The position numbers and the translations under genes are program-made. The notes below the pieces were generated by a model, which did no database searches, was not told where the DNA came from, and saw nothing but the letters and a program-made list of their open reading frames with translations. This document shows, piece by piece, positions 10,465 through 50,038 of a stretch of DNA of 64,000 nucleotides (position 1 is the first letter of the stretch; every line of letters begins with the position of its first letter). This stretch comes from Cladocopium goreaui (taxonomy: Eukaryota > Sar > Dinophyceae > Suessiales > Symbiodiniaceae): assembly GCA_947184155.2 (NCBI GenBank), contig CAMXCT020006577.1, forward strand, positions 253,993 to 317,992, read 5' to 3'.

Positions 10465-10622
10465 TGTATTTTCAGGTTTCAGCAGGGGTTATAGTTATAA
10501 TCCCAAATAGACTGATAAACCTAGAATCCGCTAAGCATCTGCGACCGCAGCACCTTTTACTGAGCCGCAACAGCTGTAATGCATGCTATAATACATGGGT
10601 TTTATGGTGGAGTGCAATTACA
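10465..10622 (-). repeat. 3' LTR of family A
   Basis: A 158-bp copy shares GTATTTTCAGGTTTCAGC, AATAGACTGATAAACCTA and the GAGCCGCA block with the 5' LTR at 22854-23027. It is preceded on the minus strand by the polypurine tract. Confidence 0.8.
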
Positions 10623-10630
10623 CCCCCCTC
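10623..10630 (-). promoter_or_regulatory. Polypurine tract of family A
   Basis: GAGGGGGG on the minus strand abuts the LTR start TGTAATTG. The same GAGGGGGG abuts the family B 3' LTR. It is the expected plus-strand primer for reverse transcription. Confidence 0.75.
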
Positions 10631-10780: not shown

Positions 10781-13700
10781 TTATCCCTCTTCCCACTCAA
10801 CTCGGCCATGCCTGATGACTTTCTCATACCAGCGTCCATGCCACTTCTGCCATTCTCCAGTGTAACGGCGATCATCGTGGGATTGACTTTGCTGAGGGCG
10901 GTTGATCCACTGACTTGCAGACGTTGATGATGAAGCTACCTCTACGGTGGATGGTCGGGCAACCGGTTTGGCGGTGCCTTTCTTGGAGGGACCCTGGCCG
11001 TACGCACCAGTTTGCTCAGCTTTGCGCTTGGCCTCGTTCTGTTCGCGGGCCCTGTCAGACTGCTTCTTCTTCTCTGCTGCGTTCTGCTTGTACAGCTCCT
11101 CATTTTGTCCCTTAATCCACCTCAAATGACGTTCTGCATCATGAACGGCAATATTGTCAACACCAGTACAAGACAACAAAAGATTGTGTCCAGGATTCCG
11201 GTTGAGGTAGTCAATGTACTCTTCTTCTGAGTAGATTTCCGTACGGTACATGTAGAACCATGGTTGGTCAATGTACCTGAATGATTTCGGGACATCAAGA
11301 CGGCTTGCCAAATCCAAGTAAACCAGCCTCATCGCATTGTGCTCCAGCTGAGATTGCTCAGAAACACCCATCTTGACCTGAGCTTTGGTGCGACCCGGCT
11401 TTGGCAAATGTGCAGACTTGAGGAGGTCGTACCTTTCACAATCGTACTCGTTCTCCCCCTCGTTCAGCACGCTCTCTGCGAATGTGGCGTCCTGGGCAAA
11501 CCTGTCAGCCACAGACACATAGCCTAAGCTCAAGGCACGGTCGAAACGACTCTTCGCCCTTGCCAACAAACCGGCTTCCGGACTTGAGCTTCCCCTTGCC
11601 TGGTCGTCCAACAAACCCAAAGATTCAAGCTGACCATGTGTGATGCTCTGCAGGTACTCACCACGAAAATCATAGTACAAGCCCAGCTTGTGAAGGGCGG
11701 CCTTCCTTCGTTCTGCAATCTTGGTTCGGTCGGCCTTGTTCACCCCTTCGAGCATCAATCCACACACATCGCATTCAATCTGTCCCTTGAAAGTCTGTGC
11801 AAAACATCTTGAACATTGCGTGACTTCAATCTTGACCGGCACCGGCTTCTTGTCCTCCTTCTTCACCTCTTTCTTCGAAGGTTGGTCATCGCCTTTAGGG
11901 CGAGACTTCTGCTTTGGCACGAGTGACTTTGATGTTGATGCTGGCGTCTTTTTGGGTGACTCTGCAACTGGAGCTTTTGGATCTTTCTGCACTGCCTTTG
12001 GTGGTGCAACTTTTGGAACAGGCTCCAAGAAGGCCGCAGCTGATGATGCCGCAGGCACAGCTGCGGGCACGCTTGTCAGGGCTGCCTTCTTCTTTGCAGG
12101 TTCATCCTTTGCTGCTGCATCAACTTCTGAGGTCACAGCTTTTGGAACTTCTGGTGCATGAGGTGCAGAAGTCCCTTCCTTCGGTGATGGTTTTGGAGGC
12201 GCCTTTGGCGGTGTCTTTGGGCCTTCAACCTTTGCTGCAGGAGGCTTTGGAGCTTCACCCTTCGGAGGAGGGGGCAACAATCTGCTGCTTGCATATCCAG
12301 GCATACCGGCAAGTTGGGCCACATTTGGTGGCGGAGGCTTCACCTTCCCTGGGAAAAATGCTGTTGCAGTGGGCGCGCCAGTTGAGGCGGCCGGAGGCGT
12401 GGAACCAGTCCGTTTTGATGCCTTGGCCTCAAAGGTCTCGACAAGCTGCTGGACTCCAACTTCTCCCCCACTGCTCGCTGCAGACTGTGCAACCTCCTGC
12501 TGGCGACGATACAAATTCACCTTCTTGGCAGTGTCATCGACAGAGATAATGTATTGAGGCGGTACGACATCACTTGTCAAAATGCCGTCAGAGGCCGTCC
12601 TGAAAAACACAATGCCAGCTTTGACAGCTTCAGCCATTGCTACCCTGATTTCAATGGGTCTTTCAGCACGCAACCCGCTCACATACTCGTTCTCATCGAC
12701 TCGAACATCGCTAAAATAGGAGTGAGCTCTGCCTGATGAATTTCGTTCTCCTCCTCCAGCCACGAAGCCATTCTCAATGATGCCCTTCCAATTGCCTTTT
12801 GTAGTCCTGTGATAAACTACGCCAGGGCACATCTGAGGAGTGGTAATCTTTTTACCTTTGGCGTTCATTTTCTGGATCGCTGCTGCTCCAGACAGAGCAT
12901 AGATTTCCACTGCATTGAACGTGTCCTCAGCTGAAGCGGCATTCATGGCACGTTTCGTATGCCCCTGCACTGCACGGATCCTGATGGGCCAGTAGGCTAA
13001 CCCTTTACGGGTTGCCTTCTGGTACCCGGCAATGCACTGGAACTCAAAACGGCACTTGCTGTCCCAGTAGAGCAATGAGATAAGCTCTTCAACTGTCATT
13101 CGGGGCAACTTGGCTGGCAGCATTTGGTTGAACATTCGAAAGAAGTCATCAAGGTCAAGCCACATGTTTTCATCAAATCCAGAGGTGTCCTGACCCGGCT
13201 GTCCACGTGTCACTGCATTGACCTTAGTCTTGTGTCGGTCCATGCGATCTGGGAACCTCAGCTCTTTTGCCCCATCCATCTCCCAACAGGTTTTGACGAT
13301 CAATTCGTAGGGATGGGAATCAACGACGCAATGTTCAACTACTTCTGCATTTATGTTTTCGTCCAATGTGATACGATATTTGTCAAGGTGCCCAAGTGCG
13401 TGTTTCGGAATGATGGTACCCTTGATCTCGTTTTCTTGCAGGGGCTCACCAGCTGAGGTGGCCTGAGTTGAATCCTCCTGCGTCGTCTGAGGTTTCGCCT
13501 TGGGGTCAGGCGGAGCTGCGTGGCTTGCCTTGGCTTTGCCAACAGATGGGCCCTCGTGCTCATCGGGATCCAGAGCATCCCATGGGTCGCCTTCTTCATC
13601 ATCATCTTCGGCGACACCAGCATCAGTCGGGCGAGCTCTCAACTCTTCTGCTGTGAAGCTTTCTGGGGTCGAGACGCTCGGTGCAGGCTTGTTCACCTTC

Positions 13701-15613
13701 TCCCGGAGAGAATTCAGAACCTGCACAAACCTGACTGGGAGGTGCTCCATCTTCGGTGTGACATCACGCATTGTAGCTTCACCTGCAGGGCGCCTGCGCT
13801 TGTACAAAGACAGGTTGTACTGAGGGATCAAAATGTCCGTCATGTGCAACATGTGGAGAGTTGCCATGACATATCCGATCATTTCACTTCGGTTGAGCTC
13901 GGTCTCGAACGCGTGAAAGTAGTCCCTGAGCTCAAGCCTCGGTGGGAGCATGTCATTCTTGATCCACCGAATCCGATCGTTGTCACTGGCAATCTCCTTG
14001 TGGAACCATTCCTTCAGACGATCAATAAACGTCGTGAAGATGAGACTCAATCCATAAGTGAGCGGGTCGGGCTCGCCGATTAGGGCGGCCTGATCCACTC
14101 CCAACTCCTTGAGCTGATTGTTCCACCAAACGATGTTGCCTTTGACCCTGTCCATGATGGCATTCCAGTCGCCCTGTGGTTCCCTCTGCCCCCAAATGGG
14201 AAGGGGTTCAACACCATATTCCCCACAAATTTCATTCCCAGACCAAACGATTACCGAAATAACCCTGATGGCTGATCCATGAGAAGAATATTTCGCCATC
14301 AGCTCCTTGATCATGGAAACATTTGCTTTGCAGAGCTGTTGCAAATCCTTACCCCAGAGCATGTCATGACCGATTTCGAGAACCATGTCTGACTTTCGCA
14401 ATCCCAGATCCTCCTTCAAGGTGTACTTCTTCAAAGTCTTACCCTTTCCAGTGATCAGAGCCAAAGTTGAATCAGAAGTCACCACATAGATGGTGGGCAC
14501 GACGTCTACCGCCGGCCTTGATGTCCCAGGGACGTACTCAGTAGGCAAGCTCAGATCCCACAGTGAGTCATGTTCCAACTCGGACAGATGGCGGATCTCC
14601 TTTGCCCACGGCACGTTCGTCAGGGCGTCAGTTGACATTGACTGCGCAGTAAAACACTGCATGAATCCTGCGGCCAACTCAAGGTCTTCTGTTCTGTTGC
14701 CCTGTGCCAGGATGGTTGACGAAGCGAGGACCGTGGAAAAGATGTCCTCCCACCCTGCGTGCCTATCCCCCTGAACATCAAGGCACTTCCGAAAAGCAAG
14801 CCACTCCGACATGTTGCTCTGTTGGGGCACGGTCTTTAAACCGGCCGACTTGAGAGCCCGCACGTTCATCTTGTCAGCGATCGACAAATTTGAATCATCA
14901 GAACGGCGGCTCATGGCGGGCAAAGCTAACCTTTTCCTGTTCTTGGCGGTTTGTGCCTGGTTAGCTCTGGAACGAAAACAATCATGGATGAAGTCAGTCA
15001 ACTTGAATGTGTAGTTCTCTGCAAGCTTCAGTGCAGTACCCCGGCTTTGACCATGAGTGTGGGAACCATCACAAACGTATTCTGATAGACTTGACAACTC
15101 TTCCATGTTTGTTGCAATCATCCAACCCTTTTTCATGGGATTCCCGTCCAAGTCAATAACCCCAAACTGGCAACCGTGGAATGGATACAATTTCAACTCT
15201 TGTCTCTTCAAAAACGATTGGACCATTGGCCATTTCCAATACTTGCAGTTCTTTGAGAGTTCAAATGCAATTGAAAAATGTGGCCCATCGATTTCACTGA
15301 TAATCTTTTGAAGTGATTTGAAAAGTTTTGTAAATTCCTTTTGTTGCTGTTCGATTCGTTCAGCCCCTTTGTCAGTCAAACTGTTGATGTAACCCCATGG
15401 ACTGCCGCCCACACATGGCAAGGAAGCATAAAGCAAAATCTCACCCGCTGGGTTACTCTCCCTGAAAGACTGGACTTCTTGGGCTAGCCATTTACGGCAG
15501 CCTTGGGTGGTGCCGTCCTCGTTTTCAGTTACTCGGATCAGTCTACACCCTTTACTGGCTTGCCGTGGAGTGCATAGCTTCGAATCAGATGAACAGCAAA
15601 ACTCAATCAACAT
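10781..15613 (-). CDS. Retrotransposon ORF2: MTase-like, SGNH-like, Tpt1/KptA-like, zinc ribbon
   Basis: This accessory protein has 1610 residues. Residues 1-200 contain LIEFCC, RVTENED, LYASLPCVGGSPWG and AFELSKNCKYW, a layout like a divergent SAM-dependent DNA methyltransferase. Residues about 374-540 have TSDSTLALITGKGK and VWSGNEICGE, like SGNH-hydrolase blocks I and III, without a clear final His. Residues about 790-1030 match Tpt1/KptA RNA 2'-phosphotransferase: CRFEF, IRAVQGHT, VVYHRTTKGNWKGIIENGF, GRAHSY, YVSGLRAERP, GIVFFRTASDGIL, VPPQYI. A Pro/Ala-rich linker (1060-1265) leads to a CxxC...CxxC ribbon (1267-1284) and a conserved C-terminus. The start ATG overlaps the ORF1 stop (ATGTTGA). 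Enzyme activity is inferred from the folds, except that the Tpt1 similarity is strong. Confidence 0.8.
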   Translation of the reverse strand: MLIEFCCSSDSKLCTPRQASKGCRLIRVTENEDGTTQGCRKWLAQEVQSFRESNPAGEILLYASLPCVGGSPWGYINSLTDKGAERIEQQQKEFTKLFKSLQKIISEIDGPHFSIAFELSKNCKYWKWPMVQSFLKRQELKLYPFHGCQFGVIDLDGNPMKKGWMIATNMEELSSLSEYVCDGSHTHGQSRGTALKLAENYTFKLTDFIHDCFRSRANQAQTAKNRKRLALPAMSRRSDDSNLSIADKMNVRALKSAGLKTVPQQSNMSEWLAFRKCLDVQGDRHAGWEDIFSTVLASSTILAQGNRTEDLELAAGFMQCFTAQSMSTDALTNVPWAKEIRHLSELEHDSLWDLSLPTEYVPGTSRPAVDVVPTIYVVTSDSTLALITGKGKTLKKYTLKEDLGLRKSDMVLEIGHDMLWGKDLQQLCKANVSMIKELMAKYSSHGSAIRVISVIVWSGNEICGEYGVEPLPIWGQREPQGDWNAIMDRVKGNIVWWNNQLKELGVDQAALIGEPDPLTYGLSLIFTTFIDRLKEWFHKEIASDNDRIRWIKNDMLPPRLELRDYFHAFETELNRSEMIGYVMATLHMLHMTDILIPQYNLSLYKRRRPAGEATMRDVTPKMEHLPVRFVQVLNSLREKVNKPAPSVSTPESFTAEELRARPTDAGVAEDDDEEGDPWDALDPDEHEGPSVGKAKASHAAPPDPKAKPQTTQEDSTQATSAGEPLQENEIKGTIIPKHALGHLDKYRITLDENINAEVVEHCVVDSHPYELIVKTCWEMDGAKELRFPDRMDRHKTKVNAVTRGQPGQDTSGFDENMWLDLDDFFRMFNQMLPAKLPRMTVEELISLLYWDSKCRFEFQCIAGYQKATRKGLAYWPIRIRAVQGHTKRAMNAASAEDTFNAVEIYALSGAAAIQKMNAKGKKITTPQMCPGVVYHRTTKGNWKGIIENGFVAGGGERNSSGRAHSYFSDVRVDENEYVSGLRAERPIEIRVAMAEAVKAGIVFFRTASDGILTSDVVPPQYIISVDDTAKKVNLYRRQQEVAQSAASSGGEVGVQQLVETFEAKASKRTGSTPPAASTGAPTATAFFPGKVKPPPPNVAQLAGMPGYASSRLLPPPPKGEAPKPPAAKVEGPKTPPKAPPKPSPKEGTSAPHAPEVPKAVTSEVDAAAKDEPAKKKAALTSVPAAVPAASSAAAFLEPVPKVAPPKAVQKDPKAPVAESPKKTPASTSKSLVPKQKSRPKGDDQPSKKEVKKEDKKPVPVKIEVTQCSRCFAQTFKGQIECDVCGLMLEGVNKADRTKIAERRKAALHKLGLYYDFRGEYLQSITHGQLESLGLLDDQARGSSSPEAGLLARAKSRFDRALSLGYVSVADRFAQDATFAESVLNEGENEYDCERYDLLKSAHLPKPGRTKAQVKMGVSEQSQLEHNAMRLVYLDLASRLDVPKSFRYIDQPWFYMYRTEIYSEEEYIDYLNRNPGHNLLLSCTGVDNIAVHDAERHLRWIKGQNEELYKQNAAEKKKQSDRAREQNEAKRKAEQTGAYGQGPSKKGTAKPVARPSTVEVASSSTSASQWINRPQQSQSHDDRRYTGEWQKWHGRWYEKVIRHGRVEWEEG

Positions 15614-18600
15614 CCTTTGGAAAGAATTTGAACCATCACGTCCCCCTGATCATCGACATTAGCTGGACACGCAGGCTTGGAGTCTACTTGGCGCACCTTG
15701 GGCTTGTCGGCGTCGATCCAAGTCTTTCCAATGGCCATCAACCTCAAAGCATGTTCCCATTTAGTTGGGGAAGTAAAAGGTTTTGTAAGGATGTCAGCTG
15801 TCTGCCAATTGGTGCCAACATTAATGAGGTCAAATTGTTCCTCCTCAAACTGCTGTTTCATCCATTTAAAACAGATGTTCTGAGTTTTGTTGGCGTACCG
15901 CATGGTGGAGGAATTACCGGTGCCCATCACAGTTATAGAAGCCTGATTATCTTCCATGAACTTCACTTGATAGAACTCCGGAAAATGGGCCTTCAATCCA
16001 TTGATATTTGCCGCAGAAAGGCCCCCCTCAACGTTACCATACCTGATTTCATCGATCTCTTTGTCGATACGAGTAAAAACAGGATCACATGGTTCGGGGG
16101 TGTTTGGCTTGGGGTTTGACCCAGCCTTCTGCGACAATTTCTTGAAAATGCCCAATTGCTCCAACAACGCTAACATTGGAATCCCTTCTGCTCTGAGTGC
16201 GTGATTGGCTGACACGACTTCGGCTTCAGTGGACGAGTTTGCTACAACTGTCTGCTTCTTGCTGAATGCGTTTAATGGGAAATAGGTGTTTGGCCCCACA
16301 AGAAACATGGCACAACCTGAAGTTGATTTTGAATCATGTTCCCCCGCATGATCAGCGTCAGCAAATAGCCACAGTTGACAATCCTCAAACGAGTCTCCCA
16401 CAAAACCCTCCATAAAAACATCTGTAGTTGACTTGATATATGATACCAATCTGTGCAATGCAATGTCGCACTCAATGGACCATTTCGTCACTCTAGATGC
16501 CAAGCTTTGAGTAGCTCTTAAGAGATCTGGGCGTGCCATACGGGCCGCAAAGAGAATCTTCATCAGAACCTTTGATGCAATCGGCTGCAACCTCCCTGGC
16601 TTCTCCTTCTCATCGAGAGTTGGCCGGGCTATTCCCGCTTCTGTGAACGGCGTTGCAACCACTGGCAAATCATCTTTCTGAACCTTTGCCAGTTCACAGT
16701 ATGCATCTACGCATGATTCCATAAAAGAAGACATGTCGTACCTTACCAGGTTTACAGGTTTGTTCATGCAACCGGACTTGTTTGTAACGACACTCTCAAT
16801 GCTTTTGAACCGTTGAGATTTCTTCTCATTCTTGGCTTCCCTTTTGTCTCTGTGCGGACCGGGTCTGTTCTTTGATGGGAGGGCAAACTGATTAGTGTTG
16901 CCATACTCGTCACCATACCTGAAGATTGTTCTTCCTGTCCAGAAGTCTTTTGTCTGAATCTTTTGATCCACTGTCATGTCATCTTCAACAATAGCTGAAC
17001 TTTCGTCTGACATATGCATGTTGAGAACTGGGAGACCTTTAAATTCAACATTTTTGTCGAACATTGTAACCCGTTCTGAATGCAAAGACGTGACAAACTC
17101 CCCCCCCTCATCGCCAGGCTCGAACAACTTCTTCCGTGGCTGGAGATGATACCTTGTCCAAGTTTTGTTGAAGGGGTCATGTTGCCAAAAATCATTTGTT
17201 CGATGTTGTGTACGTGCCGCAGCAGCCGCCTGAGAATCAAAAACATGTGCAAAAGGATGAGCTTTTCGTGGTAGTGTAACATTGTTAAACTCCACATGTT
17301 GACAACCGAAATATCGATCATAGGGTTCGGGGTCACCAATATTGACTGCTCGTTTGATACTTGCCCATGCTTTGTCCATGTTCTCAGTGGGACCTGCGAG
17401 TTTGAAATCATCCACGTAAACAACCAACATGCAATTGTACTCAGCATGATAGAAAATACTTTGCCATATATCAGGGAGAATTTGTTTCCAACCTTCTTTT
17501 CCGATTCTGCTGTTGAGGTGGTTTTCCCAAATACCGCCACTGTCTGGATGCCCGTACAAAGCTAAAACCAAAGGAACCATGGGTTGCCAGAATTGCTTTT
17601 CCCAGTGTTCTGGCCATCTGTTCCGTGGCAATGATAGCCATGTGGGCACCCCAGTGAAGAGGGCCTGGATATAAGCTTGAATGGCGTCTGCCTGAGCTTT
17701 TGAGAATCCGGGCTGAGAACCAAACGCGTCAAGAAGCTTTGCAGCTTCCATCGAAGCAGGACTGCTACCTAACTCGGCAAACAACGCGTGGTCAGAATCC
17801 TGGTCGCGGACATTGTTACCCTGGAAGACTGTACGGCCCTTGAATTTCCTACGAGGATCATCAGCTGGAAGTTCCGACCCCTTTTCGTAGCAGGCTTCAA
17901 AAATACGACCAAGATGTACAGTTTCCCCTTTCTTGCGGGCTTCCTCAACAATGCTTTTACATTCCTTGACTCTGGATTCGTCCCATACTCCTTTTGTCCT
18001 GAGGTTCTCCCACTCCTTATCTAAGGCAGCCTTTGCTTTGGGGTTTTTCCTAACCTCATCTTTGGGAACCAAACGTGCAACAGCAGAAAACAATTCAAGA
18101 GCCACTTTGAATTCCAACTCTGCGATCTTGTTCTTGATCATCTCTCTCAATTCCGGGCGATGCAGTTCAGCTTTTGCTGGAACCGCTTTCGGCATTGCAG
18201 GGACACAAAATTTTGGTCTATCCTTTGGAATGACCTCCCATGTTGACACACTAGGCTCACCTGAGGGGCTAGGGTTTACCCGAAGCTTTCTTGCAGTTGC
18301 AACCGCACCTTTCTTTTTCTTCGGACCCTTTGATGCTGAACTTGATGCAGCACCGCCGCTGCCAACAGCCATCTTTTCAGCCTCCTCCTCAACAAGCTTT
18401 TGCCTATCCTTCGGACTAAGCATTTTCCAAAAATCCGATGGGATCGACTCAGGGCGTTTTGACCCTTTGTACGTTTTCACAAGGCGTGTGCCGTCCCAAT
18501 GATAACCATCCGGGATTGGTGTTCCAGTTGGAGTGTACTTGATATCAGGAAAAACTGGTTCCTCAGCCGGCCTTTCATCACTGGCAAGTGCGTCAAGCAC

Positions 18601-21600
18601 TGCCTCCGTTGACTTGTCAATTGCTTCTTCACTTGCTTCTGCATGTTCCTCTGTTTGCAGTTCGGATTGAAACGGAATCGGACGAGGATCAGCAATGACA
18701 TTGTCAGCAAGGCGGTCCGGCTTGGGCTCTTTGGCCTCTTTCAATGCACGGAGTGGGAAGACAAAACCTCCCGCGATGAGCTCAACACGTCGTGCTCGCT
18801 GCACTGTGATGCTGCCCGTTTCTGCATGGTAATCCAATGCTTCTAACTTGGCAACAAGATACTCACCTTTCCATGCAAAGCCAGGTTGAATGTGGTATCC
18901 CAAAAAGATTCCATCATTTGCTGTTGGTGATGTCTTTCCAGATGTGTTGTCAACCCTTTTTGGATTGTTCCAAAACAGTATCTTTGCACCGAAAGGAATC
19001 AACTGACCTGGAAAATCTTCTTCGAATCTGAGTTTCCATGGGGCATCATCACCGTTGAGCTGTGGCGTGGCATTCACTGCCATGGAGAAATGCTGCATAG
19101 CCATCGGCCAATACTGCAATGGAAGACCTGACTGCACGAGGTTTGTGCGTGTGCCTTCAAGCATGTGCCTGATCTCCCTCTCCACAAACGACTTTGAACT
19201 GTCCACATACTCTGTTGATGTTTGATGTCTGTACCCCAACTCTGAAATTGTAGCAATAAGTTCTCGTGAATTGTCAGTGTAAACTGCCCCAACTTCATCC
19301 TTGTGAGATAAGAAGTGGTTGAAAGCATTGACACATGACTCACTCGATTTTGTCTGACTTGGATAGACGTGCCTGAACTGAGTGTGAATGTCCTTCATCA
19401 CCAATGCCACTGTTTCACCTTTGACGCCTTCTTCCACATTGGATTTGATTACAGTATGGTCAGCGACAATGTGATCCCCAAAACTTTTGGTTTCCAACCT
19501 CTTCTGTCCCCCTTTCTTCTTTGCGGGTGGCGCCATCATGCGCGCCTTCTGACAGATTTTGCAAAATGGATTCTTGGGGTAATGGCAAAACTGGTGAGAC
19601 TTGCTGCATGCCTCTTGCTCAAGGTCAGATGCCTTTCTAGACCTGACGTACTCGGTTTCGCTATCATGAGCTACTCCCTCATCCACGCCTTCTTCATCGG
19701 CACCTTCTGCTTTTGCAGCAACCATTGCAAAGAGACGTAACAGATCACAATCTTTCTTGAACTGTCCACTGTTCAAAACACGACAAGAGCTATCGATGAC
19801 CGGCACACGGCCGTCTACGTTAAGCTCAATGACTCCCATGTCCGGACGAATGAAGTAAGGCCTACCATCAGCTGGCCACACAAAACTGTAACCCTGTTCC
19901 ATACACCTGACACCAACCGAAAGAACAGCAGGAGTTTCTTCGAGGATGTATGGTGAGAATGGCTGATGTAGGGCATCGACTTTTACGTCGGCCACCTCAT
20001 CCGCTCGTGTCGAACCGTTCGCTGTAGCAAGGCTGATTGGGGTATCGCTGACACGGCGGTTTGTCGCCTTTGCAGTCTTCAGCATACCCTCACTAATCAA
20101 ATCCTGTTCACTGCCCGTGTCAACCAACCAAACACATCCATCTTTTGATGCCGGTGTAGCAACAGTGGGCAAATGAGTGTTACTGACTTTGTTCTTGGGA
20201 CCGATCATTGCTCTACAGTGGTTGCATGATACTCCCCCTTCTGGGTCATTGCATCGGAATCGGCATTTGGGCTGCGTCTCACTGCCGAAGAGCTTCACAA
20301 GTTCCTGCAACTGTCGGGCCGAAACCTGAGCACGGTGAGCCACGAGTTTGTCGGGTTTTGGCACTGACTCTGAATCAGGGAACGTCTTCTCATAGATTCG
20401 GGGTTTGTGCACTACCTTCCTCTGTTCACCTGTTGCTGGGACTTTGATGTATTCCACTTTTGATGAAAACACAATAGCTCTATGGCATTGTTCTTTCATG
20501 GCCTTTGTAGCTTTCGGCAACCCTTTTCCCTTTGCTATGCATGCATACCTTTGAGTAATGCATGGCGCAGCTTTTGCACTGGCCTTCTTCTTTGGTGCAG
20601 GGCTATTGGTGCGTTTTGGATCCTTTGTGGGTGCAGCTGCAACTTCATGTTTGTAAAAACACTTGTCACCACGACGACATTTGCCCTGTTGAAAGTAAGT
20701 GCATGGGATCTTGGCCATCTCTTCCTTCGACTTTCTGTTGGGGGAACCACTTCTGCTACCACCTTTGCCCTTACCCTTCCTTTTGGGGGTGCCAGATCTT
20801 GAGGAATCTTTGACATGCTTGTAGGGACAGTCTTTACCCTTTTCGCACTTGCCATCCCTGAACTTGTAGCATATTTTATCCCCTTTTCCACTCTGGCTAC
20901 GACCACGGGTTCGACCTCGGTCGCCCTTTCCTTTGCCGCGATCTTTGCCCCCCTGAGCGGGTGCAGCGGGCTGAGGCTTTTCGGTCTGCTTGTTCTTTTC
21001 AACGATTCTGTTTCTGTTTGAACGGAGTCTTTCTCTATCCAAAAGATCACGAATGTTTCTCAACAAGAATGCATAAGACTTTTGTTCTGACTTTTCAGGA
21101 GCTCTGTCAAATGCTTCAATGTCATACTTCATCAATTGACATTTTCGGATTTGTCTGAGTAAGATGTCTCTGAGAACCAAATCATCTGGCGGGGTTTCCA
21201 TGCCGGCAATTGTGGCGTCCCATCGGTTCAGAAACCTTCTAAGGTCCTCCACAGATTCTCCAGTGCGAACGACTCCAAGTAGGTCCTCGACGCGGTAGAG
21301 ACTGCCAGCTTCCTCAGACGTCCTGAAGTAATCTTCAAACATCAAAAGGACTCTCCTACCTCTGACTTGGATCCCTTTCTTTGACTTCTCATCTTTGAAG
21401 TTATGGATCTTTGTTGCTAAATCACCTTTGGCCGAGCGAGTTAACGCTGCCGACAATTTGGTGTCAAGTGTGATAAATTTCCCAGGTTCCTGCAGCTTTT
21501 CCTCCAACTTTTCCCTAGGGGTTTTGTTGTCAAAGACTTCATTGAGCCAAAGCCAAGCCTCATCGGGTTTGTCGGAGCACGACTTGACTTCGTCCCTGAC

Positions 21601-22827
21601 ATGATTACGCCAGTGACGATACGCTTCTGGGGCAGGCATGTCGTTCAGTTTGATAGTCTCTGCCTCTTTTGTTCGGGGCTTTTCACCATCTGAATCCTTT
21701 GAAGTCAGTCTGGTGATGAGATCTAGCAATTGTTGACCTGAAAGACCTAAGCCTGCTTCAGCTGCTTTCTTGCCAGGGTCGCTTGCTATTACTGTAGGAC
21801 TGGGCACACTATGTTCTTGATTTGCATCATCATCATTTTGTCTTTGAACTGGCAATGGTGGAAGTTTTGGAGGGGCTGCTGATCCGGCAGGGGTAGTTGA
21901 GAACAAGTTGCTCAACCTTTCCTTAGCGTCCATGGCTAAGCTACTCATACCAGTGTTTGGCATGGGTTCTGCTCCAGCCTTGGTACCGACCGCTGATTTT
22001 GGGGTCATGTACAAATCGACATTGTTCCCGCCTTGTGTATCATCAACTTCGACGGCTCTGTCGACATTGATTTCCGGAGCGCTGTACTTGTTGAGCTTCT
22101 CCATCAAATCCTCCACTTGTCCCTGCAATTGGAAGTTTAGTTCAGCAGCTTGGTTTTCCTGCCTACTGCATTCCTTTCTAATCTCCTGGATTACAGCTTG
22201 TTCCTCCTTCTTGAAACCTTCCATGCCATTCTTTGCATACTCTACTGTTTCATCCACGATTCGTTTACAGTCTGCCTCGAGGCTACCTCTGAGTTCAGAA
22301 AACCTTTGTTCGTACTGGGCTGTAACATGGGCTACCTTTTGGTTTGCTCTTTGCTCAGCTTCCAGTGCAACTGCATTTGCAGCGTTCTTCAGCTTTGCGT
22401 TTGCATCGCTAAGTTCCTGTCTCAGTTTTGCGACCTCATGCTCAGTTGCCGTTTGGGACATTGAATACTCTGACACTAGGTGTTCATGTCTGCGATCAGC
22501 TTCTGCACGTTGATGGGCAATTTCACTAAGGCAAATTCCCTCAAACTCTTGGTGCAGTTGCTGGACCTTTTGTTCCATGAGATGTGTGTGTCTCTCTTCT
22601 GCCTCTTGTCTGAAAGCGTCAATGTTACCTTCATTAATGTAGGTAAGATTGTTCTGCACGAACTGAAAATATGCCTGGACGGGCTGTGTGAAGAAACCTT
22701 CATCTACCGACATGGGCGTGGGAGTTGCCCCAGCCGTCACAGGCTGAGATCCAGTTGGTGCAGTTGCCATTGTTCCTGAAGCAGGTACAAGAGCGCCACC
22801 ACCTGTAGCATCATGTGACTTGTCCAT
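15607..22827 (-). CDS. Retrotransposon ORF1: gag-protease-integrase-RT-RNase H polyprotein
   Basis: This copia-type polyprotein has 2406 residues. A long coiled coil (about 50-250) precedes a capsid-like helical region (390-600). Two CCCH fingers follow (CYKFRDGKCEKGKDCPYKH, about 653-671, and CTYFQQGKCRRGDKCFYKH, about 709-727). The aspartic protease motif is WLVDTGSE (900). Integrase has the zinc module H..H..CKIC (about 1078-1093) and a D-D-E core with VYTDNS (about 1182) and FVEREIRHM (about 1214). RT has GRTVFQGNNVRD (about 1665) and the YVDD box (about 1804). RNase H follows with LFADADHAGEHDSKS, STEAEVV, EDNQASI and ADILTKPF. All catalytic motifs look intact. The start codon lies only 26 nt from the 5' LTR. 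Confidence 0.93.
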   Translation of the reverse strand: MDKSHDATGGGALVPASGTMATAPTGSQPVTAGATPTPMSVDEGFFTQPVQAYFQFVQNNLTYINEGNIDAFRQEAEERHTHLMEQKVQQLHQEFEGICLSEIAHQRAEADRRHEHLVSEYSMSQTATEHEVAKLRQELSDANAKLKNAANAVALEAEQRANQKVAHVTAQYEQRFSELRGSLEADCKRIVDETVEYAKNGMEGFKKEEQAVIQEIRKECSRQENQAAELNFQLQGQVEDLMEKLNKYSAPEINVDRAVEVDDTQGGNNVDLYMTPKSAVGTKAGAEPMPNTGMSSLAMDAKERLSNLFSTTPAGSAAPPKLPPLPVQRQNDDDANQEHSVPSPTVIASDPGKKAAEAGLGLSGQQLLDLITRLTSKDSDGEKPRTKEAETIKLNDMPAPEAYRHWRNHVRDEVKSCSDKPDEAWLWLNEVFDNKTPREKLEEKLQEPGKFITLDTKLSAALTRSAKGDLATKIHNFKDEKSKKGIQVRGRRVLLMFEDYFRTSEEAGSLYRVEDLLGVVRTGESVEDLRRFLNRWDATIAGMETPPDDLVLRDILLRQIRKCQLMKYDIEAFDRAPEKSEQKSYAFLLRNIRDLLDRERLRSNRNRIVEKNKQTEKPQPAAPAQGGKDRGKGKGDRGRTRGRSQSGKGDKICYKFRDGKCEKGKDCPYKHVKDSSRSGTPKRKGKGKGGSRSGSPNRKSKEEMAKIPCTYFQQGKCRRGDKCFYKHEVAAAPTKDPKRTNSPAPKKKASAKAAPCITQRYACIAKGKGLPKATKAMKEQCHRAIVFSSKVEYIKVPATGEQRKVVHKPRIYEKTFPDSESVPKPDKLVAHRAQVSARQLQELVKLFGSETQPKCRFRCNDPEGGVSCNHCRAMIGPKNKVSNTHLPTVATPASKDGCVWLVDTGSEQDLISEGMLKTAKATNRRVSDTPISLATANGSTRADEVADVKVDALHQPFSPYILEETPAVLSVGVRCMEQGYSFVWPADGRPYFIRPDMGVIELNVDGRVPVIDSSCRVLNSGQFKKDCDLLRLFAMVAAKAEGADEEGVDEGVAHDSETEYVRSRKASDLEQEACSKSHQFCHYPKNPFCKICQKARMMAPPAKKKGGQKRLETKSFGDHIVADHTVIKSNVEEGVKGETVALVMKDIHTQFRHVYPSQTKSSESCVNAFNHFLSHKDEVGAVYTDNSRELIATISELGYRHQTSTEYVDSSKSFVEREIRHMLEGTRTNLVQSGLPLQYWPMAMQHFSMAVNATPQLNGDDAPWKLRFEEDFPGQLIPFGAKILFWNNPKRVDNTSGKTSPTANDGIFLGYHIQPGFAWKGEYLVAKLEALDYHAETGSITVQRARRVELIAGGFVFPLRALKEAKEPKPDRLADNVIADPRPIPFQSELQTEEHAEASEEAIDKSTEAVLDALASDERPAEEPVFPDIKYTPTGTPIPDGYHWDGTRLVKTYKGSKRPESIPSDFWKMLSPKDRQKLVEEEAEKMAVGSGGAASSSASKGPKKKKGAVATARKLRVNPSPSGEPSVSTWEVIPKDRPKFCVPAMPKAVPAKAELHRPELREMIKNKIAELEFKVALELFSAVARLVPKDEVRKNPKAKAALDKEWENLRTKGVWDESRVKECKSIVEEARKKGETVHLGRIFEACYEKGSELPADDPRRKFKGRTVFQGNNVRDQDSDHALFAELGSSPASMEAAKLLDAFGSQPGFSKAQADAIQAYIQALFTGVPTWLSLPRNRWPEHWEKQFWQPMVPLVLALYGHPDSGGIWENHLNSRIGKEGWKQILPDIWQSIFYHAEYNCMLVVYVDDFKLAGPTENMDKAWASIKRAVNIGDPEPYDRYFGCQHVEFNNVTLPRKAHPFAHVFDSQAAAAARTQHRTNDFWQHDPFNKTWTRYHLQPRKKLFEPGDEGGEFVTSLHSERVTMFDKNVEFKGLPVLNMHMSDESSAIVEDDMTVDQKIQTKDFWTGRTIFRYGDEYGNTNQFALPSKNRPGPHRDKREAKNEKKSQRFKSIESVVTNKSGCMNKPVNLVRYDMSSFMESCVDAYCELAKVQKDDLPVVATPFTEAGIARPTLDEKEKPGRLQPIASKVLMKILFAARMARPDLLRATQSLASRVTKWSIECDIALHRLVSYIKSTTDVFMEGFVGDSFEDCQLWLFADADHAGEHDSKSTSGCAMFLVGPNTYFPLNAFSKKQTVVANSSTEAEVVSANHALRAEGIPMLALLEQLGIFKKLSQKAGSNPKPNTPEPCDPVFTRIDKEIDEIRYGNVEGGLSAANINGLKAHFPEFYQVKFMEDNQASITVMGTGNSSTMRYANKTQNICFKWMKQQFEEEQFDLINVGTNWQTADILTKPFTSPTKWEHALRLMAIGKTWIDADKPKVRQVDSKPACPANVDDQGDVMVQILSKGC

Positions 22828-22834
22828 GGCTTTA

Positions 22835-22853
22835 GAGACTACGGCTGATAACC
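22835..22853 (-). promoter_or_regulatory. Primer-binding site of family A
   Basis: GGTTATCAGCCGTAGTCTC directly follows the 5' LTR on the minus strand. The identical 19 bases follow the family B LTR at 49885-49903. Its complement reads ...ACGG CTGATAA CC, which has the form of an anticodon stem-loop, so a tRNA 5'-half primer as in Drosophila copia is likely (inference). Confidence 0.65.
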
Positions 22854-23027
22854 TGTATTTTCAGGTTTCAGCTGGGGTAATTCCTATTACACCCAAATAG
22901 ACTGATAAACCTAAAACAAGGGAATAAAACCGTTAAGCACAGCGACTCAAGCACTGTTTTTCTCCTGAGCCGCACAGCTGTCGTACATACCTATATTACA
23001 GTGTGTTTTATGTGAGGTGATTTTACA
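22854..23027 (-). repeat. 5' LTR of family A
   Basis: A 174-bp repeat related to 10465-10622. It begins TGTAAAATCACC and ends ...AATACA on the minus strand. It must hold the element promoter; no TATA-like box stands out. Confidence 0.8.
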
Positions 23028-26045: not shown

Positions 26046-26049
26046 ATAT

Positions 26050-29990: not shown

Positions 29991-30136
29991 TGTATTTTAC
30001 CAGGTTAGCCAACAATATAGTACAATTACTATATGGGGCGCAACAAACCGGTAAGCACTCAGCTCTTTTGAACCAACGCTACAGAGTAGATCGATGATAT
30101 ATACACTACATGGTTTTACTGCAGGAGTTTTTTACA
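29991..30136 (-). repeat. 3' LTR of family B copy 1
   Basis: A 146-bp LTR sharing TGTATTTTACCAGGT, TTTTGAACCAACGCTA, GTAGATCGATGATAT and GGTTTTACTGCAGGAG with the LTR at 49904-50038. Like the family A LTR, it ends in TGTATTTT at the left edge. Confidence 0.85.
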
Positions 30137-30354: not shown

Positions 30355-33300
30355 CTACCTGCGGTTCCAATAGATCCAACGGCCGCCGGCCTCATCACGG
30401 TAATACCAAGCCCCACGCCAGAAACTCCATTCTCGGCGTGCACCATAGTGATCACGATTCCAACTCCAGGAGGCATCCGGGCGACCGGAGCTTGCAGCCT
30501 TCGATGTGGTTGTGCTTGCTGCTTTTGCAGTAGGCAGCGTCTCAGGCTCCAAGAATGGTCGTGCTCCTGCTTTGGATGTTGGTGGTTCGGGTGCAAGAAA
30601 TGGTGCATTGTTGGGATCAACTGGGGCATCAGCGTGCGAGGCGTCTGCGCGAGCAGAGCTTGAGGCGGCAGTGTCATCATGTGTAGTGACGGATGCATCA
30701 GCTTCGGCTTTGCGCTTTCGCTCTGTGGTGGGCGCGACCGTGGGGTCGGCCTTTTGACCTCCAGGACCTCCAGCCTTTGCAGCGGCGCTCTGCTTCTCTT
30801 TGCGTTCAAGGTTTCCCCGAACCAATGGAAGATTTTCCTCATACACCTTTTCGAGGAATTCAAGAGAGCCATCAAAAGGAACTTGGACAGTGCCCTTCCA
30901 GGTCAAAAGGCCACGGAATGCGCCACGACGACCGATGTAGCTGACATATTCATCCTCTGTAAAAATGTGGCGGCCGAACATGAATCCCCAGACCTTCTTC
31001 CATGTTTTGCGGAACTCAACTGGGAAACCATCAACACCTCGAGGCTGGGACATGAAAATCAACTTAGATAAGCAGTTTTCATTTTGGGCATTGGCGGCGA
31101 CGCCAGCCGAGATCTGAGCTTTGGTCCTTGGGGGATCGGGGAGGTTGCCATATGCGAACATGTCGTCAAATATGCAGTCCTGCAGGTCCTTCCCCTCACC
31201 GTGGATGCGGTCGCAAAAAGTGACGTCGCTGGAGTATCTGTCTTCCACGTCCTCGTAGCCCAGCGCTTTTGCACGTCGATGCCTGTCGCGGCAGTCTTTG
31301 AGGACTGCTGATTCCACGGATGTGATTCCCCTGGGGCCCAGTTCCCGGCGAAGCAGATTGGCTTGCTCATCCGTCAAGGCTGTCAGCAAGCTTCCGCTCA
31401 TTTTCCCAAACATTCCGAACCCGGCGAGACTTTGCATTCGCCGTTCAAGGATGCGTGTCCTCCTGTTGGGTTTGTCGGCCTCTTTTGTATCGCCACTTTC
31501 GTCCACTGGGAGTGGTTCATATCCACATGTGGTGCATGTCACTTGGCCACTGACGTACTCAACCTGGCAGAGGGGGCAGGAGCCCATGAAAGGTTCGCAG
31601 TACTTGGGTGCAATGTAAACACGGCGCGTCCTTGCGGACGGCTGGTCAACTTGCATTGGGGCAGTGGCTGCATCATCATCAGTGGACTTGGCATCGGGTC
31701 GCCCCGTGCTGGTGTCATCCATTGGGTCGTCATTTGCATCATCTCGGGCAGTCAGGGTGACCGCTTTGGATTTCGGTGCTGAGGCTGATTCCGCGCCTGT
31801 CCATGAGCTGGGCTCGAGATTGCTCTCGGCGCGGGTCCAAAGCACCTGTCCTTCTTCTGAGATGCTGACCAGAAATTGCGGTGGAATGCGTTCTGAACAC
31901 AAAATACCATCCATTTCTGTGCGACTAAAGATGACACCAGCTTCAACTGCTTGCCGCATCGCGATTTTGACTTCGACTGGACATTTTGCTCTTAATCCAG
32001 ATCGATACCCCTGTGTGCCGATACAGTGTTCTGCCATGTAGATATGAGCACGGCCACTGTTGACTGTGTCACCGCCGCCTGGAATCAGGCCGTTCTGTGC
32101 GATGCTCTTCCAGCTGCTTCTCATCGTGCGATGGAAGACAACCTCAGGGACCTCAGTCATGGCACACAAGGGCACGCCAGTGAAGGCGGCTTTTCGCTCG
32201 GGGGATACTTGGTTTGAGCAATACACCATGGTTGAATTGGCATAAAGACCCCCTGCGGTTTTCAAGGCAGCTTCGGAGTGACCCTGAATTGCACGGATTT
32301 TCACAGGATAATACGGCATGCCTAGGCCATTGTCGACAGGAAAATGGGAGATCTTTGCACACAAGAATTGGAACCTACTCTTGCCATGCTTGTCGATCTT
32401 CATTGCGGTGCCAAACAGGTTTGCGACAGTGATGAAAACATCTGGGGGCACTTCCTTGCGGAAGGCTTTGGCAAAATCCTCCAAGTCAATCCAAAGGTCT
32501 TTGTCCATTGGCACCTTGGCACAGGATCCATGCCCCCTGCAAACTTTATTGACACGGGTTGCAAAATCAGAAAATTTCTTGTCGACGCGAGTCTGGCTGG
32601 CAATGGTCTCGACGTCGGATGGCGATAGAAGTTCCAATTCGTAAGCCGTACCTTCAAAAAGGATACCGGGTACATCGTCCCCGTCTGCATTGGTTACCAT
32701 TGTATATTGGTATTCGGGCAAGTGCTCCTCCATCCAATATGCTCTCACGTGACCAGATGCATGTTCCTCTAAGCGCGCAGTTGCCTGCGGCTGGTACTGG
32801 CTGGAAGTGGCTCCTGTGTCATCTGCAGGCGCGGCTGCGGCTACAGGGACAGGTGCTGCTTTCGGTCGCGACTTCAACAAGACCTCGGCTGTTTTGACCA
32901 TGATCGATGCTCTGCTGGATGTGGCGGGCTCGCCGTCGCCGGCGGCCATTTTTGGAGGATCATCCTTGGGAGGCTCAGCAAAGGTTCCAGGAGGCATCGT
33001 CTTGACATCGATGTAATCCTCTGTGTCAGGTTGTTGAGCTTCCACATCTTCTCTGGTGAATGACCTGCCCGTCGGAGTGATGTGTCTTCGGGACTCTCCA
33101 AAAATCAACTTGGTGATGCTTGCGACCGTCTCCTGATAGGATCTTGGCAGCTCGTCGAGGACGGCGCTCATGTTCCTTCGCAAATCATCCCATGTTTCCT
33201 GGCCACATTGGGCAAGCTCAAGACCTATTCGGCCAACCCGCCATCCACAGTCAATGGCAAACAAAGTTGCCGTCCAGTATGCTGAGAGCCGCGTGCGATT

Positions 33301-36300
33301 TTCTTCAGAGTTGGCGAAATGCCACTGGTCTCTGAATTCCATTGCATCGGCGTACCCCTTTGCACGCAACCATGGAAACTTCGGGTTGGCAAGCCCTTGC
33401 AGGCTGCTGGTCAAGGCTTTGAACTTTGGCTCCAAGGTTTCAAAGAACTGGTCAAAAATCGGATGAATACCATAGTCAGCGGACCAGGGCGCGGTGGTGA
33501 GACCGGCCGATTGCAAATCCAGTTCACGGGCTTTGGTGACAAACCACGTCAGATGGCGTTCACAATCATCCATGATCGTGGGCCAGTGCCCGTTGGGACC
33601 GTCGTATGGCCAATTTGGATTTTGGGCAATCCCATCCTCACCTACCAATTCATTTCCGAACCAGGACAAATGCAGGTTGATGCGGGCATCAGGGTAGCGC
33701 TCGCGGGCGTCCGCGGCCAATTCAATCCCACGTTTGACCAACCTTTGCAGAGTTTTGCCCCAAAGCATCTCATGGATGAACTCAGTCACATACTTAGGTT
33801 TGCGCTGCCGGTAATGCTCGGACAGGTCAAACTTCTTAAGTGTTTTCCTACGCCCTGTGATCAATGCACATGACGAGTCAGAGACTAAGATCCAGACTAC
33901 ATCATTGACGGGCATCTCTGGCAGCATGATCTTTTCGATGTGGGACTCCTTTGGCAAAAAGCAGAAGCTAAGGTATTCTGCAAGCGGATCCTCTCGACCA
34001 TAGAACCTCAGGGCCGAAGCCGGCGTCCATTCAGTCATCAATCCATCCACGAGGTCCTGAGCAGCCTGATTCTCACCTTCATTGCGCATGGCCAATGCAT
34101 ACAAAATGCGATTGTGAAGGAGCAACCATGCTTCTTTGTTAGCCTCACGTGTGGCTTCGAGCGCAGCCTCGCGGCTGGCCGGGTGTGCTGTGGCATATCG
34201 CGAGTCAGCCATTTTAGCAGGACAGGCACGAATGACAGCGGGTAAAATCCTTTTGGATGTTTGGCCCACCACAGCTACCCGGAAACACTCATGGAGCATG
34301 TCAGTCAACTTGAAGGTATAGTTCTCAGCAAGTTTAAGAGCTTTGCCCCTACTTTGATCATGCTCATGTTTGCCATCACATTTAAATGAGTCTAACACTT
34401 CGAGTTCTTTGAAGTTTCCTGCAATAGTCCAACTTTTCTTCATTGGTTGACCGTTGTTTCCAAGAACACCCAACATACAACCATCAAAGTGATGAGTAGT
34501 CATGGATCGTTCCATGAGGAATTTTCTAACCATCGGCCATCTCCAATATTTGCAATTCTTGGACAGTTCAAATGCTATCAAGGTTCGTTCATCATAAACT
34601 TCATCCACAAGCTTGACAAAAGATTTGAACAACTTGGTAAACTGTTTTTGTTGCTCTTTGATGCTTTCTTGACCCTCAACAGTAAGGCCATTCACATTCC
34701 CCCATGGGCTACCTCCAACACAAGGCAACGATGCATAAAGTATCAAAGTGCCGTCATTGAAATCATTTCTGAAATCTTGGACTTGGGAGGCTAGCCGTTG
34801 CCGACAGCTGTTAGTGGTACCATCTTCTTTTTCGGTAACCCTAATGCAGTGGCAATCTTCATTGGACTTTCTTGGGGTACTAAGTTTCGAATCATCAGAG
34901 CAGCAAAATTCGATCAACATTCTGGGCTTAAAAGACTTTTGGGAGCCCCCCTGATTCCCGGCAGCAGTTGCTAGTTTTGGCACCTTAGTGGAATTCGGCG
35001 CCGCGGTGTGGCGGGCTGCTGCTTCTTCCACCTTTGTCGGGCCAATGCCAATGAGATGAATGGCATGCAACCAAAGGGCTGGTCGGGGAAAAGGGTTTGT
35101 AAGAATGTCTGCAACTTGGAAACTGGTTCCTACGTTGAGAAGATCGAACTGTTTACATTCAAATTGTTGTTTCAACCATTTGAAGTTGATGTTTTGTGTT
35201 TTATTCATGTGTCTCATGGATGCTGATGAACCGGTGGACATGACTGTGATAGTCGCTTGGTTGTCCTCCATAAATTTGACTTGATAAAATTCAGGGAAAC
35301 TGGCCTTGAGGGAGTTGATGTCCGCTGCACTACAACCTGTATCGACGGTCCCATTACGGATTTCATCAATTTCAGGGTCGATCCTAGTGAACACGGCATC
35401 TTCTTGGGGCTTCGCGGCATCGCGAGCTGGCTTACCCTGTAGCTTCTTGAAAAGGTTCAACTGCTCAAACAGGGCCAGCATTGGAATGCCCTCGGCTCTC
35501 ATGCTGTGATTTGCGGCAACTACCTCAGCCTCAGCTGAAGATATTGCAACAACCGTTTGTTTCTTACTGAATGCATTTAAGGGGTAATACGTGTTGGGGC
35601 CTACAAGCACAATGGCACTGCCAGTGGTACTCTTGCTATCATGTTCGCTTGCATGATCTGCGTCGGCAAAAAGCCAGAGTTGGCATTCATCAAAGGCATC
35701 CCCAATGAAACCCTCTAGGAAATGGTGCTTTGTACAATGAATGTATGACACCAATCTATGCAAGGCAACATCGCATTCTATGGACCATTTTGTCACTCTT
35801 GATGCTAAACTTTGTGTGGCACGCAACAAGTCGAACCTTGCCATTCTGGCGGCAAAGAGTATCTTCATCAAGATCTTGCTGGCCACTGGCTGGAGTTTGC
35901 CAGGCTTCTCATCTTCACTGAGTGTGGGCCGTGCGATGCCAGCATCTGTGAATGGTGTTGGCACCTCTTTTAAGGACGATGGGCTGACTTTTGCAAGATT
36001 ACAATAGTTTTCTACACAGGACCCTAGGAAATCACTCATGTCATACCTCACTAAGTTACCGGGCTTGGCCATGACGCCAGCTTTTGTCTTCACAGCGTGA
36101 TCAACCCCCCTGAACTTAGAGGCCTTGGCTTCCTTTTTCGCCTCGCGTTTGTCGCGATGTGGTCCTGGTCTGGCTTTACTTGCCATTGCAAACTGCTTGA
36201 ATTTGTCAGGTCCATCTTGTCCATAACAGAAAACTGTTTTTCCTGTCCAGAATTCATTTGTTTGATTGCTAGATGTTTTCCAATCGTCTGTATAAACATC

Positions 36301-39236: not shown

Positions 39237-39336
39237 NNNNNNNNNNNNNNNNNNNNNNNNNNNNNNNNNNNNNNNNNNNNNNNNNNNNNNNNNNNNNNNN
39301 NNNNNNNNNNNNNNNNNNNNNNNNNNNNNNNNNNNN
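39237..39336. other. Assembly gap (100 N)
   Basis: Exactly 100 N, a placeholder of unknown true length. It joins the protease region of family B copy 1 to the Tpt1-like region of copy 2. The missing piece should include the end of copy 2, an LTR, the target's other half and the start of copy 1. Confidence 0.95.
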
Positions 39337-48300: not shown

Positions 48301-49873
48301 TGAATCTTCTGAGATCCTGGACAGTATCGCCTACTTTGACAACACCCAAAAGATCTTCTACTCTGTAAAGGCTACCTGCTTCTTCTGATGTTTTGAAGTA
48401 GTCCTCGAACATGAGCAGAACATACCTTCCCCTGACCTGGATGCCTTTTCGGGATTGCTGCTCTTTGAAGTTCAAGATCCTAGTTGCGAGGTCCCCACCG
48501 GCTGAGCGCGTGAGCGCTGCTGATAGCTTTGTGTCCAGCGTGAGGAACTTTCCAGGATCTTGGAGTTTCTTCTCCAACTGCTCCCGGGTGCACTCTTGAT
48601 CGTACACCTCATTGAGCCAGAGCCATGCCTCGTCTGGGCGATCTGAGCAACTTTTCACTTCATCCCTGACATGATTCTTCCAAGTCCTATATGACTCCGG
48701 AGCGGGCATGTTGTTCAGCTTGATGATTTCGGCCTCCTTAGTTTTTGGCTTATCCTTTTCTTCCCTTTGGGTTAAGGCTTTCACCTATTCAATAAGATCT
48801 GAGGGACCCATCACTTGCTGTTGCTTGTTTACGCTCTTTGGGGAATCGTTTGGGGGAGTTTTGATAGCCTCAGTGGGAGTGAAAAACCCTGACTGCGTTG
48901 GCAACTGAGGCTGGTCGTTGCCGACAGCCGGTTTCTGCTTGGGGCTGCCACCTTTGAGCAGCTCATCCAATTTGGCTTTTGATTCCTGGGCCAACACTGC
49001 AGGCGTTTTCAGCTCTTGAATCGGCTCATCGCTGCCTTTGGCAGCTTGTGCATCGGATGCTCTAGGAGTGGCAATGTTGAAGTGGGGCACGCTAGTGGTA
49101 GCGGCTGGCTCGGCATTCTGGACGGATGCTTTCGGAACGGAGGCATGCTGCGCTTTGGCAACATGCCTTAACTGCTCCTGAAGGTCATCGATTTGGTCCT
49201 GAAGGCTGAGATTCTGAGCCGCTGCCTCGTTGATCTTCTCGGCCATCTCCTTCTTGTAGTTCTCGAATTCGGTCCTCAAACTGATGAACCTGGCCTGATC
49301 AACTGCAGCCTGATCTTCATATTGCTTCTTCGTGGCAGCTATGGCATTCTTAGCATGTTCAACAGTCTGTGCATAGGAAGCTTCGAATGCACTAGTGATA
49401 CGTTGCCTTTCCTCTGCAATTTTCTGATCATGCTTTGTGTTTGCCTCTACCTTGAAGTCCTCTACTCTTTTGTCATGCGATGCCTGAGCCTGATTTAACC
49501 TGACCTCTAACTCGTCGCCTTGTTTCCTTTCCTCGTTGACGGCGCTGATGGCCTTACCTTCAACCTCCTGCAACCTTTGCTCATACTCCTGCTCCTGCAT
49601 TACGAGCCTACTTGACCATTCGTTTCGAATTGAGTCAACTACTCCATGCATTATCTGAAGGTGCCTCTGTTCAGCTTCCCTCATGACTTGCAGGGTATTC
49701 CCACTAGTAATCTGGGACAGGTTGTTTTGTATGAAGGTAAAGTACGCGACAACGGGTTGGAACATTGTTTCGTCATCCATCGGCTCGGGGTTGCCCCCGG
49801 CCACATTGGGCACAGCGACAGCCGATGGACCTGACCCTGGAACGGCGAGAGGATGGTCAATTGGGGTCCCCAT
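39337..49873 (-). pseudogene. Family B polyprotein, copy 2, interrupted
   Basis: Gag starts at 49873 with MGTPIDHPL and a long coiled coil. An in-frame TAG ends it at 48785, between coiled coil and capsid-like region. The frame reopens with two CCCH fingers (CYKFQKGTCDKGKKCPFKH, CIYHAQGKCRRGDKCFYKH), protease WLVDSGSE and integrase. A 2-nt insertion (extra TA near 45106, absent at the same place in copy 1) shifts the frame just before RT. RT to ORF2 then runs open from 44948 until a 22-nt tandem duplication near 40453-40496 shifts it again before the Tpt1-like domain (about 39580-40240). The methyltransferase-like motif reads GGSPRG instead of GGSPWG. This copy should be non-functional. Confidence 0.85.
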
Positions 49874-49884
49874 AGCAAAGTAGT

Positions 49885-49903
49885 GAGACTACGGCTGATA
49901 ACC
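49885..49903 (-). promoter_or_regulatory. Primer-binding site of family B copy 2
   Basis: Identical 19-mer to the family A site, directly internal to the LTR and 11 nt from the gag start codon. Confidence 0.65.
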
Positions 49904-50038
49904 TGTATTTTACCAGGTCAACCGGAAATGGGGTAAAATGCAACACAACCGTTAAGCAGCTAGTCCTGTTTTGAACCAACGCTATCGGGTAGATCGATGA
50001 TATGTACAATACATGGTTTTACTGCAGGAGTTTTTACA
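49904..50038 (-). repeat. 5' LTR of family B copy 2
   Basis: A 135-bp LTR with TG...CA ends, related to 29991-30136 but differing in a block near its left end. It directly abuts the ATT/ATC microsatellite. Confidence 0.85.

Follow-up and report, generated by a model that had tools for sequence, protein, structure and literature searches.

A Tpt1/KptA-like domain in the polyprotein of copia-type retrotransposons from a dinoflagellate genome and its possible role at half-tRNA primers

What would an LTR retrotransposon do with a domain of the family that removes splice-junction 2'-phosphates from RNA? The question arises in a 64,000-nt stretch of the Cladocopium goreaui genome (contig CAMXCT020006577.1; "the window" refers to the whole of this stretch), where an earlier note had read a Tpt1/KptA motif series within an open reading frame of a copia element and had proposed several roles for it, action on a tRNA-half primer among them. 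The element in question, element 1, consists of the following features:

22854..23027, minus strand: 5' LTR, 174 bp, TG...CA
22835..22853, minus strand: primer-binding site (PBS), GGTTATCAGCCGTAGTCTC, immediately downstream of the 5' LTR
15607..22827, minus strand: ORF1, 2406 aa, with CCCH-finger gag, protease, integrase, reverse transcriptase (RT), and RNase H motifs in copia order
10781..15613, minus strand: ORF2, 1610 aa, the C-terminal part of the polyprotein
10623..10630, minus strand: polypurine tract, GAGGGGGG
10465..10622, minus strand: 3' LTR, 158 bp, equal to the 5' LTR at 129/155 aligned bases

Judged by its motif order and by the paired LTRs, PBS, and polypurine tract, all of which are present, element 1 is a copia-type LTR retrotransposon. 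The ORF1 motifs lie at residues 901 (protease), 1089 (integrase), 1802 (RT), and 2155 (RNase H), an order common to the database relatives P0101-P0103; the Pfam copia RT model (RVT_2, cut-off 31.6 bits) scores below its cut-off in ORF1 (16.7 bits, E=0.0059) as well as in P0101 (18.7 bits) and P0102 (19.3 bits). Inspection of the element 1 flanks by eye revealed no target-site duplication. The two LTRs are ~83% alike despite the long open frames, which may reflect a recombined copy or fast LTR change. The split between ORF1 and ORF2 is a frame change in this copy: in P0001, and likewise in element 2 (described below), the RNase H frame continues into ORF2 sequence, which makes ORF2 the C-terminal portion of a single polyprotein and leads us to reject its reading as a separate gene.

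The Tpt1-like domain is present in three copies in the window:

12506..13255, minus strand: Tpt1-like domain of element 1, ORF2 residues ~787-1036 (PF01885 match, and fold match over ORF2 787-1037)
31828..32574, minus strand: Tpt1-like domain of element 2, bounds set by offset from the QGH motif
39548..40294, minus strand: Tpt1-like domain of element 3, bounds set by offset from the QGH motif

The motifs named in the earlier note are present in ORF2, and hmmscan places a PF01885 (Tpt1/KptA) match at residues 835-1014 (E=3.3e-12; 47.3 bits versus a curated cut-off of 26). When the predicted structure of the element 1 domain is compared with the PDB by Foldseek, all 21 matches at E<=0.001 are Tpt1/KptA chains, the best of them being mouse and human TRPT1 (7yw2 and 7yw3), and both the RNA lobe and the NAD+ (ART) lobe are found. 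On this structural model, ORF2 residues ~787-1036 are a two-lobed domain of the Tpt1/KptA fold, and the claim that such a domain sits inside a copia-type element is upheld by Pfam, fold, and element motifs alike. Other searches return matches of varying strength: a single-sequence PDB search gives E=0.077 (weak) for the element 1 domain, to human TRPT1, and E=0.0007 for that of element 2, and a profile search gives, for human TRPT1, E=0.001 with profile A1 and E=0.0056, no better, with profile A2. PHROG 5470 matches the domains of element 1 (3.7e-05) and element 2 (2.7e-05), and the matches of ORF2 to NCBIfam equivalog models are weak and far below cut-off.

The domain is a regular part of the polyprotein in a copia-type lineage, where it lies downstream of RNase H. 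Database searches returned six proteins with the ORF2 domain region, 93 with profile A1, and four long ones with the element 2 domain region. Six long relatives (P0001, P0003, P0100, P0101, P0102, and P0103) show, by motif or Pfam match, the order RNase H, PCVGGSP domain, Tpt1-like domain; five of these carry the strict QGH motif (P0102 has a Pfam match instead), and five carry the RT motif (P0100 begins downstream of RT). P0101 (3599 aa) and P0102 (3909 aa) span everything from the CCCH fingers to Tpt1. The clusters of P0001 (371 members) and P0101 (282 members) are of a size that suggests many element copies.

The PCVGGSP domain (MLIEFCC...PCVGGSP...FELSKNCKYW) is conserved directly after RNase H in all three elements:

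15613-14939, minus strand: PCVGGSP domain of element 1
34920-34246, minus strand: PCVGGSP domain of element 2
42653-41979, minus strand: PCVGGSP domain of element 3

For this domain, Pfam gives no hit in ORF2, and its profile has none in the PDB with E below 0.35. Between it and the Tpt1-like domain, ORF2 residues 377-567 (~14485-13913, minus strand) carry spaced SDS, GNE, and DxxH motifs that, by eye, may recall an SGNH/GDSL hydrolase; GNE and DxxH occur in all but one of the 11 sequences examined, the exception being element 3a, which stops short of the region. Past the Tpt1-like domain, ORF2 residues 1267-1285 (11815-11759, minus strand) form a zinc-ribbon-like CxxC...CxxCG motif; of the 11 sequences examined, 8 have it and the other 3 show no match.

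The other two elements in the window belong to a second subfamily:

30355..39236, minus strand: element 2, one open frame with protease-integrase region, RT, RNase H, PCVGGSP, Tpt1-like domain, and C-terminus
29991..30136, minus strand: 3' LTR of element 2, 146 bp, equal to the element 3 5' LTR at 113/132 aligned bases
39337..49873, minus strand: element 3, coding region in four ORFs through frame changes
49885..49903, minus strand: PBS of element 3, same sequence as in element 1
49904..50038, minus strand: 5' LTR of element 3, 135 bp

An assembly gap (39237-39336) takes away both the 5' part of element 2 and the 3' end of element 3. Identity between elements 1 and 2 is 83% in the RT segment, 75% in RNase H, ~59-60% in PCVGGSP, and 35% in the Tpt1 segment, and dN/dS for this comparison is saturated; the selection estimate comes from a single pair, elements 2 and 3. 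In that pair, the Tpt1 region (320 codons; 60 differences at the nucleotide level, 14 at the amino-acid level) has a dN of 0.020, a dS of 0.246, and a dN/dS of 0.083 by NG86 (0.111 by YN00). The corresponding ratios by NG86 and YN00 are 0.079 and 0.120 for RT-RNase H, 0.082 and 0.126 for the PCVGGSP domain, 0.147 and 0.204 for the stretch from PCVGGSP to Tpt1, and 0.415 and 0.769 for a 50-codon linker. In this one measurable pair, the Tpt1-like domain is under purifying selection and as constrained as RT-RNase H; because element 3 is broken, the estimate, if anything, understates past constraint.

Elsewhere in the window, positions 23081-29562 hold direct repeats of ~2.2 kb, spaced ~4.2 kb, around AT-rich DNA. 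Two ORFs lie inside this repeat region, one integrase-like (25374-26093; rve, E=1.5e-06) and one AAA_30-like (26742-27242; E=0.0018), both scoring below the respective cut-offs; the region is perhaps an integrated virus-like element. By eye, the integrase sequence recurs directly beside the 3' LTR of element 2. A histidine-phosphatase-like fragment just downstream of element 1 (10197-9691, minus strand; PF00328, E=6.7e-05, just below cut-off) and an EF-hand ORF (6762-6016, minus strand; PF13499, E=4.7e-08) are probably host exons. GC content falls to 22% in positions 58001-60000, against ~48% in the elements, and a spliced-leader search of the 64-kb window gave 0 matches.

Whether the domain could act as its relatives do depends on its active site, for which the residue register is a profile alignment to CthTpt1 (6e3a), with numbering that agrees with the residues described in PMC6333775:

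13207-13205, minus strand: R803, equivalent of CthTpt1 Arg18
13204-13202, minus strand: G804, equivalent of His19
13057-13055, minus strand: K853, equivalent of Lys66
13051-13049, minus strand: R855, equivalent of Arg68
12811-12809, minus strand: H935, equivalent of His101
12730-12728, minus strand: R962, equivalent of Arg121
12670-12668, minus strand: R982, equivalent of Arg139, just outside the active-site block 12728..13207

The N-lobe piece of this alignment scores 2 bits only, and its register is backed by an Arg-to-Trp spacing of 15 residues, equal in 6e3a (Arg18, Trp33) and the elements examined, and by a helix at that place in the predicted structure. Conservation was counted, with gapped rows omitted, over an alignment of 104 rows that represent 102 sequences (the three window copies and 99 database proteins); these rows are fragments of related copies and hence not independent. 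The Arg18 equivalent is Arg in 68/70 rows, and the His19 equivalent is Gly in every one of 70. Lys66 and Arg68 equivalents are kept in 71/77 and 72/77 rows; those of His101 and Thr103, the HxT motif, in 57/61 and 58/61; and those of Arg121 and Arg139 in 45/49 and 48/49. The equivalent of His125, the second ART His, is Tyr in 48/49 rows, and Arg takes the place of Gly in the HGT motif in 53/62. Alignment A2, built largely from the same proteins, gives Gly in 48/48 rows for His19 and Arg in 46/48 for Arg18, with a noisier Arg121 column (Arg in 38/46). The arginine cage thus keeps its Arg121 and Arg139 equivalents, and the Arg140 equivalent is Ala in element 1 (GLRAERP), a position at which RslTpt1 carries His (PMC6333775).

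As such, the Arg-His-Arg-Arg tetrad that the earlier note proposed to align survives in its three arginines and not in its histidine. Homology to the family is supported, and removal of splice-junction 2'-phosphates, which that note had ascribed to it, is at most a possible activity of this domain; since the tetrad reads Arg-Gly-Arg-Arg, we speak of a Tpt1-like domain rather than of a proven RNA 2'-phosphotransferase. According to PMC6333775, Arg18 and Arg68 of CthTpt1 hold the 2'-phosphate, the His and Thr of HxT bind the NAD+ ribose, and the sole contact of His19 is with the junction 3'-phosphate; in RslTpt1, the matching His-to-Ala change slows step 2 threefold, and two arginine mutants slow it 710- and 210-fold. 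Because His19 touches the junction 3'-phosphate only, an enzyme of this family acting on RNA that terminates in the phosphate could dispense with it, and arginines kept alongside a His-to-Gly change in every row would fit a phosphate at the RNA end and not one within the chain.

Elements 1 and 3 carry the same 19-nt PBS (2 matches versus 0.02 expected), although their 5' ends otherwise align locally over no more than 34 columns. The complement of this PBS is spaced like positions 22-40 in a tRNA-Ile with inosine at 34, tRNA-Ile(IAU); by this pattern, the PBS seems to pair with the anticodon arm of a tRNA and not with a tRNA 3' end. No tRNA genes were seen within the 64-kb window, and scans of viral contigs for the predicted anticodon arm yielded either no match or two, neither of the two having a tRNA gene. 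There is precedent for such priming: Drosophila copia is primed by a half-tRNA, and the internal tRNA end used by Ty5 is made by RNase P cleavage (both described in PMC5371799), while plant Bianca elements are described as using an edited half tRNA-Ile (PMC6317226).

We infer from the PBS and the residue pattern together a primer-healing model. Because the PBS seems complementary to the anticodon arm, minus-strand synthesis would, like that of Drosophila copia, be primed from a tRNA half at its 3' end. If the nuclease making that half leaves a cyclic, 2'- or 3'-phosphate, this would block the reverse transcriptase until its removal, and the domain would transfer the blocking phosphate to ADP-ribose from NAD+, leaving an extendable 3'-OH. 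That the Tpt1-like domain is an NAD+-dependent element enzyme that unblocks a half-tRNA primer by taking the phosphate off its 3' end is our preferred, if tentative, reading, with a probability of roughly 0.35. Just as tentatively, the lineage might encode an end-healing enzyme of this NAD+-dependent kind, in which Tpt1 has been re-tuned from internal junctions to terminal phosphates, making primers of cleaved tRNA halves that carry a blocking phosphate. The suggestion of a tRNA-half primer role in the earlier note gains indirect support from the PBS and from the residues lost and kept.

Several observations bear on this reading from both sides. RNase P cleavage should leave a 3'-OH, so that a primer made in this way need not require phosphate healing. 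The replacement of the second ART His by Tyr also counts against primer healing. PMC9458441 describes activity on 3'-phosphorylated RNA for the CthTpt1 and ApeTpt1 homologs but reports none for human TRPT1; the latter counts against the reading because the human enzyme, with that of mouse, is the closest fold. Finally, PMC6333775 calls the tetrad, its His included, essential, which counts against an active domain with Gly in its place.

An unlikely alternative is that the domain caps RNA or cDNA by ADP-ribosylating its 5'-phosphate, or that it targets host RNA and thereby weakens an RNA-based defence. Tpt1 and TRPT1 are described as modifying a terminal RNA 5'-phosphate (PMC9458441), PDB titles show KptA bound to DNA, in one case as 5'-p-ADPR-DNA, and KptA domains in two RNA-virus polyproteins are discussed in PMC9503650 in terms of RNA processing or repair, but no feature of the element points to a 5'-end substrate.

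Rather unlikely, too, is canonical Tpt1 activity, in which internal 2'-phosphates would be removed from cleaved and ligated element RNA or from host tRNAs, thereby enabling copying or translation. Fold and family are those of Tpt1, both lobes are present, and three of the four tetrad residues are kept; the residue that reads the junction 3'-phosphate is nevertheless the one that is Gly in 70/70 rows. We also know of no source of 2'-phosphate junctions in element RNA, which further counts against it.

It is improbable that the fold is catalytically dead and binds RNA as, for instance, a packaging or primer-holding module. Replacement of the tetrad His and the second ART His, along with Arg for Gly in the HGT motif, would suit a dead enzyme, but the residues holding 2'-phosphate and NAD+ are kept among domains ~35-40% identical, and a mere binder need not keep both. 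The prospect of chance similarity, or of a decayed insert useless to the element, is close to negligible, given that the weak single-sequence PDB and NCBIfam scores are opposed by Pfam and fold matches (on which a chance match to Tpt1 was rejected), by the same placement in diverged elements, and by the low dN/dS.

If the domain is active, a reverse-transcribing element would possess an RNA-repair step of its own, and the system would allow a direct test of the way in which copia elements primed by half-tRNAs come by a 3' end that can be extended. Were end healing its true role, retrotransposition would be tied to tRNA cleavage and NAD+. Natural Tpt1 variants with the His replaced and the arginines kept are, moreover, useful for separating recognition of junction and terminal phosphates.

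A literature search over titles and abstract starts, with most subscription papers outside it, found no Tpt1 domain in a retrotransposon, and broader searches, which are weak negatives, returned no such domain among the matches listed. KptA in RNA-virus polyproteins and other enzymes in dinoflagellate retrotransposons are already known; within the literature searched, a Tpt1-like domain in a reverse-transcribing element appears to be new. The viral cases are Beihai picorna-like virus and a Botrylloides leachii nidovirus, which resemble our elements, by their description in PMC9503650, in having a KptA domain in a polyprotein and RNA-based genomes, but which are positive-strand RNA viruses, whereas the host here is a reverse-transcribing LTR element. 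The cytosine-methyltransferase retrotransposons of Symbiodinium are likewise dinoflagellate retroelements with a host-type enzyme, although these are LINE and DIRS elements, and Copia elements are described there as being without the methyltransferase (PMC5890265, a paper from which the word "phosphotransferase" is absent). Half-tRNA-primed Drosophila copia, yeast Ty5, and plant Bianca may share with our elements a PBS fitting the anticodon arm of a tRNA, and the portions of PMC5371799 and PMC6317226 consulted mention no Tpt1 domain in them. Tpt1, KptA, and TRPT1 themselves share the two-lobe fold, the N-lobe Arg, and the KxRF, IRAxQGHS, HxT, RxH, and G(L/V)RA motifs; the element domain differs from them in being embedded in a retrotransposon polyprotein and in having Gly for the tetrad His and Tyr for the second ART His.
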